Assembly (NCBI RefSeq): GCF_000143985.1
Contig: NC_014364.1
Span: forward strand, 4,352,582 to 4,416,581
Direction: 5' to 3'
DNA: 64,000 bases
DNA from: Sediminispirochaeta smaragdinae DSM 11293
Lineage (GTDB): Bacteria > Spirochaetota > Spirochaetia > DSM-16054 > Sediminispirochaetaceae
Positions 5,212 to 20,967 of the stretch are shown one piece after another. Below the pieces are notes generated by a model that was not told the origin of the DNA, searched no databases, and saw only the letters and a program-made list of their open reading frames with translations. The position numbers and the translations under genes are program-made. Each line of letters begins with the position of its first letter. Positions within the stretch are counted from its first letter, which is position 1.

Positions 5212-6507
5212 TCAGGCAAGGGCCGTGCGTTCTTCGTTCGAACGGGCAAGCTTCCTGGCAAGTAGTTTTGAAAGAAAAATGCCGTAATGGGGATAGTGTT
5301 TCATTACCTCAACAAAAGACTTTCGGCTGATCTTTACCAGCTTGGCATCCTCATCGGCAATGACGGTTGCACTCCGTCGATTATTTAACAAAAAGCTCAT
5401 TTCTCCCATGAATATATCCGCTGGAGTCAGGCTTCCTACCTGATGTCCCTTGTGATAGACGGAAAAATGGCCGCTGGAGATGTAATAAAGGAAATCCCCC
5501 TGTTCTCCCTCGCTGAATATTTGAGCCCCCTTACCGGGACAGATAACCTCTTCTCCCGAGAACCCCTCCGGGGTCTGACGGCCGCCCCCCTCCGAATGGT
5601 AGACCGTAAAGCTCACCTCGTTTCCTTTGCCATTATAGGAAAGTTCGCTGCAAAATAACTCCGCCATCTTTATTCCACGACCGTGAAAAGCATAGGGGTC
5701 CTGAGATGCAGTCTTCCGACGCATCGAGGAAACATCGAAGCCCAGCCCCTCATCCCGGATTACAAACTTCGTCTTTTTCTTGTCGCTTTCCCAGGTAAAG
5801 CGTACCCGCTTTTTGTCGATCTCCGGATCAGTACATTTTTCCATTACCAGGTCGACCACGCTCAAGCCATGCGCCATTCCCGCGCTTTTCTCTTCATAGG
5901 TAATACCGCAGTTGCCATGCTCAATGGCGTTGACAATCAGTTCGGAAAGGGCAAGCTGTAATCCCATCTTATCCTCGGAATGTAAAAACCCCATCTGAAC
6001 CAGGTTGGTAACGGGAATGCTCGCATAGATAGGAACCGCCAGGGTATCGTTTTCAATAAGGAAAGAACCGCTCATATTCTCAACGAGGCGATTGGATACC
6101 TCTCTCTGGAAAATGAGTTGCCAATTCTCAATGATAATGGAGACACATTTTAAGAGATGGCTCCTGATTCTGCTGTAATCAAGCATCACTAGAAGATTAA
6201 GGTCCCGAAGTTCTTCGGCAAGGGCCTTTTCATCCTGCTTTGAGGAATCGTAAAGTCCGATAATGCCGAAGCTGTGGAGCCAGGAGTCTTTCCTGACTTG
6301 ATCTGCAATGGCGGATAAACGAATAACCGGATCCCCGCAATTCATCATCACAAGCTCCGGTAAGTCATAGTTCAAAGACTCCTGCACCCTATGCTCGGCG
6401 GCAATCACACGAACCGAGTATCCAATATTTTTTCCACCGTGGCGAAATGCCTCTCGAACCTTTCCCAGCACCGCTTTGTCGGAGTTCACCAATGCAATGA
6501 GTCCCAT
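5212..6507 (-). CDS. Signalling protein: receiver-like, HATPase and cyclic-nucleotide-binding domains
   Basis: A 431-residue cytoplasmic protein with three parts. Residues 1-120 resemble a response-regulator fold but lack a clear phosphoacceptor motif. Residues about 165-310 form an HATPase domain of the RsbW/anti-sigma type (LALSELIVNAIEHGN as N-box, then DEGLGFD and GRGIKM). Residues about 320-420 are a cyclic-nucleotide-binding/Crp-like beta barrel (GEQGDFLYYISSGHFSVY ... GEMSFLLNNRRSAT) without a DNA-binding helix-turn-helix. This could couple a small-molecule signal to anti-sigma or kinase-like ATP binding. No partner gene is adjacent. The domain calls are good; the pathway is unknown. 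Confidence 0.75.
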   Translation of the reverse strand: MGLIALVNSDKAVLGKVREAFRHGGKNIGYSVRVIAAEHRVQESLNYDLPELVMMNCGDPVIRLSAIADQVRKDSWLHSFGIIGLYDSSKQDEKALAEELRDLNLLVMLDYSRIRSHLLKCVSIIIENWQLIFQREVSNRLVENMSGSFLIENDTLAVPIYASIPVTNLVQMGFLHSEDKMGLQLALSELIVNAIEHGNCGITYEEKSAGMAHGLSVVDLVMEKCTDPEIDKKRVRFTWESDKKKTKFVIRDEGLGFDVSSMRRKTASQDPYAFHGRGIKMAELFCSELSYNGKGNEVSFTVYHSEGGGRQTPEGFSGEEVICPGKGAQIFSEGEQGDFLYYISSGHFSVYHKGHQVGSLTPADIFMGEMSFLLNNRRSATVIADEDAKLVKISRKSFVEVMKHYPHYGIFLSKLLARKLARSNEERTALA

Positions 6508-6564
6508 CCTATTCCCCTTCTTTCGTTTATCCTCTTTCTATAGTTGTAATGGGGAAATGATTTC

Positions 6565-6592
6565 TTGACAAGTTAAGGGATTCATGTAATAG
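6565..6592 (+). promoter_or_regulatory. Strong promoter for a short transcript
   Basis: TTGACA (6565-6570), 16-bp spacer, TAATAG (6587-6592). It drives the unit holding the 31-codon ORF and the terminator at 6762-6794. Confidence 0.65.
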
Positions 6593-6642
6593 ATTAAGTA
6601 TCTTTTTACATACTAAGAAGAAATCTTAGGAAGGAGACGGAT

Positions 6643-6738
6643 ATGGATAAGATGTTTGTTATGTGCCGGCAGATTCTCACCGGTCCGACCATTCTGTTCG
6701 TAACCATATCGCCATATCCGTGTCTGCAAATCCAGTAA
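6643..6738 (+). CDS. Small ORF of 31 codons inside a structured short transcript
   Basis: ATG at 6643 is preceded by a strong SD (AGGAAGGAG) and reads 31 residues beginning MDKMFVMCRQIL and ending CLQIQ, mildly hydrophobic in the centre. The SD/start segment ACGGATATGG (6637-6646) is exactly complementary to CCATATCCGT (6711-6720), so the RNA can fold over its own start codon. It could be a leader peptide, a small protein, or incidental to a regulatory RNA. No amino-acid run suggests classical attenuation. I do not recognise it. Confidence 0.45.
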   Translation: MDKMFVMCRQILTGPTILFVTISPYPCLQIQ

Positions 6739-6761
6739 AAAGAACTTCATAAGCACGGTTT

Positions 6762-6794
6762 ACCGCGGTCTGTTACGGACCGCGGTTTTTTTTT
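6762..6794 (+). terminator. Strong rho-independent terminator
   Basis: Stem ACCGCGGTC / GACCGCGGT with a 7-nt loop, then nine T residues. It ends the about 195-nt transcript from the 6565 promoter and lies before the small gene at 6826, so readthrough could feed that gene. Confidence 0.9.
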
Positions 6795-6825
6795 GCTCCG
6801 TTACCGATGTACAAGGAGGTACACC

Positions 6826-7017
6826 ATGTTTAACGACGGGCTTATGGATCATCTTGCGAAAATCAGACAGCAGGAACTCCTGGCCTCGGCCAGAAGTTCC
6901 AGGCCCGCTTCCCGACGTGGGAAGGGGCCGTCATTCCCCGGGCCAATCACCAGGGCAATTGCCCTCGGAATGATTACTCTCGGAATCAAACTACTCAGGC
7001 GAGAAGGCAAGATGTAA
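6826..7017 (+). CDS. Small basic protein of unknown function
   Basis: A 63-residue protein starting at ATG 6826, chosen for its perfect AAGGAGG at normal spacing. The N-terminal third looks helical and polar (DHLAKIRQQELLASARSS). A basic, Pro/Gly-rich linker follows, and then a hydrophobic stretch (ITRAIALGMITLGIKLL) ending in RREGKM, which suggests a peripheral membrane or nucleic-acid-binding role. No family is recognised. It follows the terminator of a short transcript and is followed by its own hairpin at 7028-7063. Confidence 0.65.
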   Translation: MFNDGLMDHLAKIRQQELLASARSSRPASRRGKGPSFPGPITRAIALGMITLGIKLLRREGKM

Positions 7018-7027
7018 CATGACGTTG

Positions 7028-7063
7028 GCCCCTGTCCGATTTTGTCACAGGGCAGGGGCTTTA
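7028..7063 (+). terminator. Terminator between the small protein gene and asd
   Basis: GCCCCTG (7028-7034) pairs with CAGGGGC (7053-7059), followed by TTTAT. The T run overlaps the last codon of asd on the other strand. Confidence 0.65.
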
Positions 7064-8095
7064 TGCATCGTAATAGCGTCTGACAAAGGCTTCGGCATTC
7101 TGAATTGATCCGCCGGCTGCCCCTTTAACCACATTGTTGACCATCAACATAAAACCGATACGGTTCCTCTCCTCTTTAATCCGTCCGGTATACACAACCA
7201 TCCCCTTGGGATTGCCGTAAAAGGCATGCTTTGACTGGGGGAAGTTCTCTTGGGGAAGGTAGGTGACGGGATGCTTCGGAGAGGATGGTAGTGAGGGATC
7301 CATCAGGACAAAATCATCCCAGGCGTGTAAAACGTCCTCAGGACTCGGATTCGTCTCGAATTCTATCCACACGGACTCGAGATGCCCGAACATCACGGGG
7401 ACTCTAACGCAAAAGGGAAAAATTCGGGGATCAATCTCAAGGATCTTCTTAAGCTCCTTCACCATCTTCTCTTCTTCCCCGCCGATAAAGGGAATAACGT
7501 TATCGGTAATATCAAAGGCGGAAAGTCCCGGATAACCGGCACCGCTTACCGACTGATAGGTACTTACGGTAACCTCTTTGATACCAAATTTGCGAAGAGG
7601 AGCAAGGGCAACGACAAGTCCCGTGGTGCTGCAATTGGCATTGGTAACGACGAAGCCGTTAGAAGGATAACCTTGTCGTTCAATCCATGAAAGCTGCGAT
7701 AGATTGGCCTCAGGGATAAGAATGGGTACGTCCTCTTGGTAACGCATTGCACTGGCATTGGAAAAAACAAAAAAGCCGGCGTCCCGTAACTTAGGCTCCC
7801 ATTCGGAGGCGAGATCAGCGGGCATTGCGGAAAAAACGATCTCAATACCTTCTTTCTTCATGTGGTCGATATCCAGCTCGTTGAGTTCAAGGTTCATCAT
7901 CGAATGAGGGATTTCCTGGGGAACAACCCAATGCACCTCGTCTCCATATAGATTGCCCTTTCTGGAAGAGGAGGCTGTGATGTGGCAGGTCTCAAACCAA
8001 GGGTGGTCCTGAAGCATCCACATAAAGACTTGGCCCACTGCACCTGTAGCCCCGAGCACCGCCGTTTTTATTTTCTTTTCGCGCGTAAAATCCAT
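7061..8095 (-). CDS. asd: Aspartate-semialdehyde dehydrogenase
   Basis: 344 residues; NADPH-dependent reduction of aspartyl phosphate to aspartate semialdehyde, feeding lysine/diaminopimelate, threonine and methionine synthesis. The N-terminal Rossmann motif is GATGAVGQ (residues 15-22). Catalytic Cys155 sits in NANCSTTGL, and the substrate-binding region includes GHLESVW. The sequence and length fit the archaeal/fungal-type branch rather than the E. coli type. I placed the start at the ATG at 8095, which has AGGAGG seven bases upstream; an in-frame start about ten codons further out lacks one. It is a single gene facing the small protein at 6826. Confidence 0.93.
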   Translation of the reverse strand: MDFTREKKIKTAVLGATGAVGQVFMWMLQDHPWFETCHITASSSRKGNLYGDEVHWVVPQEIPHSMMNLELNELDIDHMKKEGIEIVFSAMPADLASEWEPKLRDAGFFVFSNASAMRYQEDVPILIPEANLSQLSWIERQGYPSNGFVVTNANCSTTGLVVALAPLRKFGIKEVTVSTYQSVSGAGYPGLSAFDITDNVIPFIGGEEEKMVKELKKILEIDPRIFPFCVRVPVMFGHLESVWIEFETNPSPEDVLHAWDDFVLMDPSLPSSPKHPVTYLPQENFPQSKHAFYGNPKGMVVYTGRIKEERNRIGFMLMVNNVVKGAAGGSIQNAEAFVRRYYDA

Positions 8096-8256
8096 AGAAC
8101 CTCCTGTCGTCCAAAAACTTACCATTAAGTTTCATTATCTGAACAACAAATCGATCCTCTGTCAACCAACAAGGGCCAACAGGAACCAAAACACTTGCCC
8201 TGCCTCAAGAAGAAACGTATACTTGCATATATTTATCGCGAATGGGAGGCTTGCAA

Positions 8257-14613: not shown

Positions 14614-14642
14614 ATAGTACAAATTTCATCACGAGATGTCAA
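14614..14642 (-). promoter_or_regulatory. Promoter for tRNA-Leu
   Basis: Minus-strand TTGACA (14637-14642), exactly 17 bp, TACTAT (14614-14619), about 14 bp before the tRNA 5' end. Confidence 0.8.
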
Positions 14643-14646
14643 GGCG

Positions 14647-14670
14647 TCGGGAGGATCCTGCCTCCCGACA
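14647..14670 (-). other. Perfect hairpin downstream of the small membrane protein gene
   Basis: GTCGGGAGG and CCTCCCGAC form a 9-bp stem with a 6-nt loop, without a T run. It may stabilise the 3' end of the hsp20 transcript or act as a weak terminator before the tRNA promoter. Confidence 0.5.
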
Positions 14671-14682
14671 TACACTCACTAT

Positions 14683-14811
14683 CTATTCCCATCGTCCCCG
14701 GTCGTCTCTGTGATTATCACGAAGCGATCTGACGATCCGGCCGACCACTCTATCAAGCTGAGGTTTGAAAAAATATCCCAAAACAACTCCGACAAGAATC
14801 CAGAAAATCAT
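14683..14811 (-). CDS. Small single-pass membrane protein coupled to hsp20
   Basis: A 42-residue protein whose ATG overlaps the hsp20 stop as TAATG and is preceded by GGGAGG at good spacing. Residues 2-14 (IFWILVGVVLGYFF) form one membrane helix. The rest is strongly basic then mixed-charge, with several Arg and Asp residues (DRVVGRIVRSLRDNHRDD), likely cytoplasmic. The start-stop overlap and SD argue it is a real gene translated with hsp20. No family recognised; a role in membrane association of the small heat-shock protein is only a guess. Confidence 0.6.
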   Translation of the reverse strand: MIFWILVGVVLGYFFKPQLDRVVGRIVRSLRDNHRDDRGRWE

Positions 14812-20475: not shown

Positions 20476-20967
20476 ATGAAAAGATTCCTGTACTGCTTTT
20501 CCGTTCAAGGAATTGCTCTCGACGAAATAACCGAATCGCCCTTTGTGATTCTACACGATGTAAAACATGATATCACCCTCCCCTTGCAGATCGGAGCATC
20601 GGAAGCAAGTTCTCTTATCCTTGCTATGGAATGCAGAGAGAAGCAGGAAGAAGAAAGCGGATACGACCTTGCGGTAGAGTTGTTTCGAAAACATCGTTTT
20701 GCCCTTCGCGGCCTTGAAGTCCGCCGCAATAAAGGGGGTCATCACAAAGGAACCCTTGTATACAAGAAAGGTATACGGACCTTTCGAACCGAGGTCAACC
20801 CGAGTACCGGCATTGTACTCTGTGCAAAGCTTGGTGCTCCTATTTTCTTCGATAAAGAAGCAGCGGATGCCGCTGATTATGATAACAGGGTACTCATTGA
20901 ACTCGCGGGAGGAAGTGCGGAGCTTCTCTATCTCGACCCGACCCATCATCCGATGCAAATCATGTAG
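20476..20967 (+). CDS. Bifunctional nuclease-family (BFN, DUF151) protein
   Basis: 163 residues. The core has the DUF151 pattern: a beta-strand start (PFVILHDVKHDITLPLQIGASEASSLILAM), a central HKGTLVY segment and VNPSTGIVLCAKLGAPIFFDKEA, matching the usual SDAIALAVRxxAPIFV region but with substitutions. Homologues include nucleases and many proteins of unknown role linked to DNA or RNA metabolism. It sits between cheR and pyrG, with pyrG having its own promoter. Confidence 0.8.
   Translation: MKRFLYCFSVQGIALDEITESPFVILHDVKHDITLPLQIGASEASSLILAMECREKQEEESGYDLAVELFRKHRFALRGLEVRRNKGGHHKGTLVYKKGIRTFRTEVNPSTGIVLCAKLGAPIFFDKEAADAADYDNRVLIELAGGSAELLYLDPTHHPMQIM

Follow-up and report, generated by a model that had tools for sequence, protein, structure and literature searches.

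Long-distance locks between the 5′ and 3′ regions of an mRNA have been described among type I toxin mRNAs, as in aapA/IsoA of Helicobacter and in hok/Sok (PMC6733600). Toxin mRNAs of the aapA type form transient hairpins and then a 5′-3′ lock, which is released by 3′ trimming (PMC6733600). Here we describe a locus of Sediminispirochaeta smaragdinae, analysed within a 64-kb stretch of its genome (hereafter the window), which resembles these mRNAs in having an ORF of about 30 codons, a predicted discrete transcript, a Shine-Dalgarno sequence and start region that are predicted to be buried by long-distance pairing with the 3′ side, and possible transient hairpins ahead of the final fold. It differs from them in that it is single copy, has no sequence relation to them and carries a lock that is a predicted one. 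Likenesses to other systems exist as well. The locus resembles 6S RNA in its length of ~190 nt, rod-like fold, closing stem and internal bubble, and it shares with attenuators and leaders such as the L20 leader the arrangement of a promoter, a structured leader, a terminator and an ORF with its own Shine-Dalgarno sequence; unlike such leaders, it has no antiterminator that we could find.

Our preferred reading, to which we assign a probability of roughly 0.4, is that the locus specifies an independent, translation-locked small-ORF mRNA of ~190 nt that is intrinsically terminated. Directly in hand are the sequence, its predicted folds, the terminator and the retention of the element in one congener, and the element is probably a genus-specific structured transcript. 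The logic of such an mRNA would resemble that of the aapA-type toxin mRNAs at the level of prediction, and no membership of that family is claimed. No promoter- or terminator-supported antisense RNA was found at the element: there is no reverse-strand terminator within it, and its best reverse-strand promoter-like site is weak (rank 419), a missing signal of this kind being no proof of absence. As no such signal was found, the locus is not filed as a type I toxin-antitoxin system.

The element is flanked by two leftward genes, one for an ATPase/cyclic-nucleotide-binding-domain protein (5212-6507) and one resembling aspartate-semialdehyde dehydrogenase (7061-8125). On the forward strand a promoter is predicted at 6565-6595 from sequence, scoring and identity in the sister species. 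Its -35 box, TTGACA at 6565-6570, is a perfect consensus and can be combined with either of two -10 boxes, namely TAATAG (6587-6592), which follows after 16 nt, matches three of the six consensus positions and lacks the final T, or TAGATT (6590-6595), which follows after 19 nt and scores better with the same TTGACA. The preliminary description had proposed a strong promoter, TTGACA-N16-TAATAG. Both boxes are there and the -35 is perfect, but the strength was overstated, as the -10 is poor and the pair ranks ~254th in the 64-kb window, compared with 33rd for TTGACA-N19-TAGATT; the promoter weights are approximate and E. coli-like, and the ranks serve as a guide only. A consensus promoter scan called nothing at 6565-6595. 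From either -10 choice a transcript start is predicted at ~6599-6602, and 28 of 29 bases at 6565-6593 are the same in the sister species. A divergent promoter-like pair on the minus strand, TTGTCA-N17-TACAAC (6543-6571, window rank 87), shares the palindrome CTTGACAAG with the -35 of the small RNA, and the ATPase/cyclic-nucleotide-binding gene and the small RNA may therefore compete for polymerase.

The predicted structured RNA (6600-6795, forward strand) is ~190-195 nt long and is retained in the sister species; with the terminator included, it folds with a minimum free energy of -61.2 kcal/mol and a z score of -4.7. Without the terminator, the z score is -3.9 for 6600-6744 and -2.6 for 6600-6760. 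A perfect 9-bp helix, P1, is predicted between UCUUUUUAC (6601-6609) and GUAAAAAGA (6735-6743), starting no more than 2 nt from the predicted transcript start. Through it the predicted 5′ end is held against the 3′ side and the entire domain is enclosed, so that the start codon of the 31-codon ORF sits inside a closed fold. The predicted fold further comprises the hairpin P2 (CUAAGA/UCUUAG, 6613-6629), a 3-bp helix at the Shine-Dalgarno sequence (6633-6635/6723-6725) and a perfect 10-bp helix, P3, between ACGGAUAUGG (6637-6646), which holds the start codon, and CCAUAUCCGU (6712-6721); the apical arm beyond P3 is less certain. The exact complementarity of the start region reported in the preliminary description, of ACGGATATGG at 6637-6646 to CCATATCCGT at 6712-6721 with 65 nt between them, is borne out, as is its strong terminator, an intrinsic terminator (6762-6794, forward strand) with a stem of 10-11 bp (ACCGCGGTCT/GGACCGCGGT, 6762-6786) and a T run to 6794, unchanged in the sister species. 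All the items that it had listed were located in the sequence, at or near the places it had given, and P1 and the hairpin at 6613-6629 are additions to them. Its proposal of a discrete structured transcript, still a predicted one, is backed by the structure, the terminator and the retention in the sister species. We also observed two copies of CCATATC, at 6704-6710 and at 6712-6718, either of which could pair with the start-codon region; in the sister species, C6704A weakens the first of them.

Such an arrangement could also arise without any functional RNA, from chance inverted repeats and a terminator in the intergenic space between two leftward genes. Of 882 windows scanned across the 64 kb, 0.8% have a z score as low as the -3.9 of 6600-6744, and the stability of the terminator-free domain is thus unusual, yet not unique, while dinucleotide shuffling of the same segment yields a perfect stem of 10 bp or longer in 15 of 2000 cases (0.75%). 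That about 0.8% of windows fold equally well would suit a chance origin, as would the poor promoter, the lack of a homologue beyond the genus and a degree of conservation equal to that of other intergenic DNA. Chance would nevertheless have to bring together, in the expected order, a perfect -35, a Shine-Dalgarno sequence with its ATG and two perfect long helices, one of which closes exactly at the predicted 5′ end, and to supply a strong terminator where no upstream co-directional gene is there for it to serve. We consider this explanation improbable.

The 31-codon ORF MDKMFVMCRQILTGPTILFVTISPYPCLQIQ (6643-6738, forward strand; ATG at 6643, TAA at 6736-6738) is preceded by the Shine-Dalgarno sequence AAGGAG (6631-6636), which is well formed with a spacer of 6 nt and of which 6633-6635 are paired with 6723-6725 in the final fold. 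The window holds ten AAGGAG-N5..9-ATG sites, only six of which open a frame of at least 31 codons. Codon usage exceeds that of 96% of open shuffles, in a weak test (p 0.04), and the 31-residue peptide is moderately hydrophobic, with a best 19-residue mean of 1.54 (1.39 in the sister species). Neither this ORF nor the 63-codon ORF downstream has a match in Pfam, NCBIfam, PHROGs or PADLOC; a second match of the 31-residue ORF in the same genome (L065) is weak, lies antisense within a 512-codon ORF and was put down to chance. The five substitutions that separate the two species within the ORF comprise three that change an amino acid and two that are silent (dN/dS 0.42), and the ORF is less protein-like in this respect than the flanking genes, at 0.07-0.18. 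In the full RNA the predicted accessibility of the ATG is 0.00 in both species, the start codon being fully paired. The earlier suggestion of a small protein under structural control is plausible, given the good Shine-Dalgarno sequence, the pairing of the ATG in the predicted folds of both species and the mildly coding-like codon usage.

A different account of the same features would be a non-coding regulatory sRNA that acts by base pairing or protein binding, the 31-codon ORF being incidental. A compact closed fold in which the 5′ end is protected, together with the intrinsic terminator, would suit such an RNA, and the weak protein-level constraint on the ORF and the burial of its start codon in the predicted fold point the same way, whereas the well-spaced AAGGAG and the codon usage do not. 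Nor does the locus match a known family: in Rfam 15 every family scores below its gathering threshold here, and the best score (23.9 bits against 50, for Betaproteobacteria_toxic_sRNA) reflects essentially the terminator alone. The 6S RNA model (RF00013) has no match at the locus, the 6S RNA of this genome lying at C1:2772707-2772887 (74 bits), and the L20 leader (RF00558), whose gathering score is 58.7, was rejected at 22 bits. A phage or plasmid origin was likewise discarded, as neither DNA nor protein comparison gave a noteworthy match and two core patterns had none in IMG/VR. We regard the sRNA account as possible but doubtful.

Downstream of the terminator lies a 63-codon orphan ORF (6826-7017, forward strand), whose relation to the RNA is uncertain and whose perfect Shine-Dalgarno sequence, AAGGAGG at 6813-6819, is as the preliminary description had claimed. 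Its codon usage is better than that of 98.6% of open shuffles; its dN/dS between the two species is 0.45, as against the 0.07-0.18 of the flanking genes. For both ORFs pooled, the counts of silent and amino-acid-changing substitutions differ from those of the neighbour genes (p 0.04), and the two may both be real, fast-evolving orphan peptides or may be non-coding. The region of the longer ORF is rich in hairpins (6850-7014), with GGAACTcCTGGC/GCCAGaAGTTCC, GGCCCgCTTCCC/GGGAAGGGGCC and a closing CATCTTGC/GCAAGATG; within it, 6862-6935 has a fold z score of -5.1, and the opposite strand one of -6.1.

This ORF raises a further alternative, namely that the 63-codon ORF is attenuated by the RNA as its 5′ leader, transcription from 6565 mostly ending at 6794 and continuing into the ORF only in certain conditions. 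An intrinsic terminator does stand between the promoter and the gene at 6826, the Shine-Dalgarno sequence of the ORF is perfect, and RNA and ORF are retained together in the sister species. The ten highest-ranking promoter-like sites in 6500-6830 all begin at or upstream of 6605, and the 63-codon ORF would therefore depend on read-through. The earlier idea of a leader controlling this gene is weakly supported: no other recognisable promoter serves the ORF, but in none of the predicted folds does the terminator exclude the upstream fold. When the terminator is suppressed in silico, only pairs downstream of 6743 change, at a cost of ~10 kcal/mol; the upstream fold being unchanged, no competing antiterminator is apparent. 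A ribosome on the 31-codon ORF would stop at 6738, leaving 24 nt before the terminator, and would therefore not obviously disturb it, and the proposed target is itself an orphan with a high dN/dS and unusually many hairpins. Compared with an independent small transcript, such a leader is the less likely reading, and we judge it unlikely.

The sole homologue found is in one congener (G001), here called the sister species, with 97% identity over a 298-nt query. The element is absent from two sister-genus genomes and from 198 genomes of the class, and a covariance model of it, run against 60 relatives, matches only in two Sediminispirochaeta genomes. In the sister genus the syntenic position (L018) is taken up by other genes or unrelated sequence, and the same applies upstream of the same neighbour gene at nine of ten further spirochaete loci, the tenth (L027) having no upstream sequence and so being left out of the nine compared. 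Short blastn matches in other spirochaetes were dismissed, as they cover just 18-50 nt, and the best own-genome blastn match (L003) was rejected as a second copy after its sequence had been read. Absence from related genomes, which the preliminary description had named as grounds for refutation, is found in all more distant spirochaetes examined, but one congener carries the element.

Between the two species there are six substitutions in 6600-6795, at 6672, 6690, 6691, 6694, 6704 and 6740. The last of these, A6740G in the 3′ strand of P1, keeps the pair by turning A-U into G-U, and the five within the ORF lie grouped in the apical arm, whose predicted fold is not the same in the two species. 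The outer 131 nt thus hold one substitution and the apical 65 nt five (Fisher p 0.016, for a partition chosen post hoc with the data already seen). A divergence of 3.1%, set against synonymous rates of 0.15-0.19 in the neighbour genes, had suggested strong constraint, an interpretation that was dropped after an intergenic control, in which the other intergenic regions of the two genomes, pooled, diverge by 4.4% (binomial p 0.24). The divergence of the RNA is ordinary for intergenic DNA, and the structural evidence is therefore suggestive only. With the element carried by two genomes only, no compensatory changes are countable, and the sequence comparison gives no covariation support and at most leaves the outer helices uncontradicted.

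Other structured segments were seen in the window. The strongest fold z score among the scanned windows, -6.1, belongs to 20736-20880 (forward strand). Strong hairpins (z -4.5) occur in intergenic sequence near a tRNA at 14646-14790, and 14618-14810 shows a divergence of only 1% between the two species. A 14-bp hairpin, AAGGCTGTCTGAGAAATTTCTCAGACAGCCTT (in 2031-2175), lies directly downstream of a leftward phosphoenolpyruvate carboxykinase-like gene and is probably its terminator.

Returning to the translation-locked mRNA, we propose that P1 would link the 5′ end of the RNA to its 3′ side over a long distance and that P3, with its 10 bp and the further 3 bp at the Shine-Dalgarno sequence, would bury the start codon of the 31-codon ORF. 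The full-length RNA would then be stable but untranslated, with the peptide produced only once the lock had been opened, for example by a nuclease that trims the 3′ strand of P1 or P3 or by a trans-acting partner. During synthesis, the U-rich 5′ tract and local hairpins could mask the Shine-Dalgarno sequence before the final helices form. In predicted partial transcripts this tract (UCUUUUU, in the 5′ strand of P1) can pair with the Shine-Dalgarno sequence, with a mean probability of 0.37-0.61 at lengths ending at 6655-6670 and 6690, and the accessibility of the Shine-Dalgarno sequence fluctuates between 0.16 and 0.5. As this pairing precedes P3 and P1, the ribosome site would often be covered from early on. 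Transcription, translation, the lock, its release and a role for the peptide are what we infer from these folds. To the more specific proposal of a genus-specific small-protein mRNA of free-living spirochaetes, silenced by its fold through sequential masking of the Shine-Dalgarno sequence, by the 5′ tract and then by P1 and P3, and working without an antisense partner, we give little credence.

A literature search on spirochaete transcripts yielded mainly transcript mapping in Borrelia, and nothing for Sediminispirochaeta. If the locus is a lineage-specific sRNA or a set of chance repeats, it would be of local interest only. If the preferred reading is true, a discrete small transcript that closes on itself and hides its start codon would offer a compact test case for the control of translation by RNA folding, and one that would stand outside the usual model bacteria.
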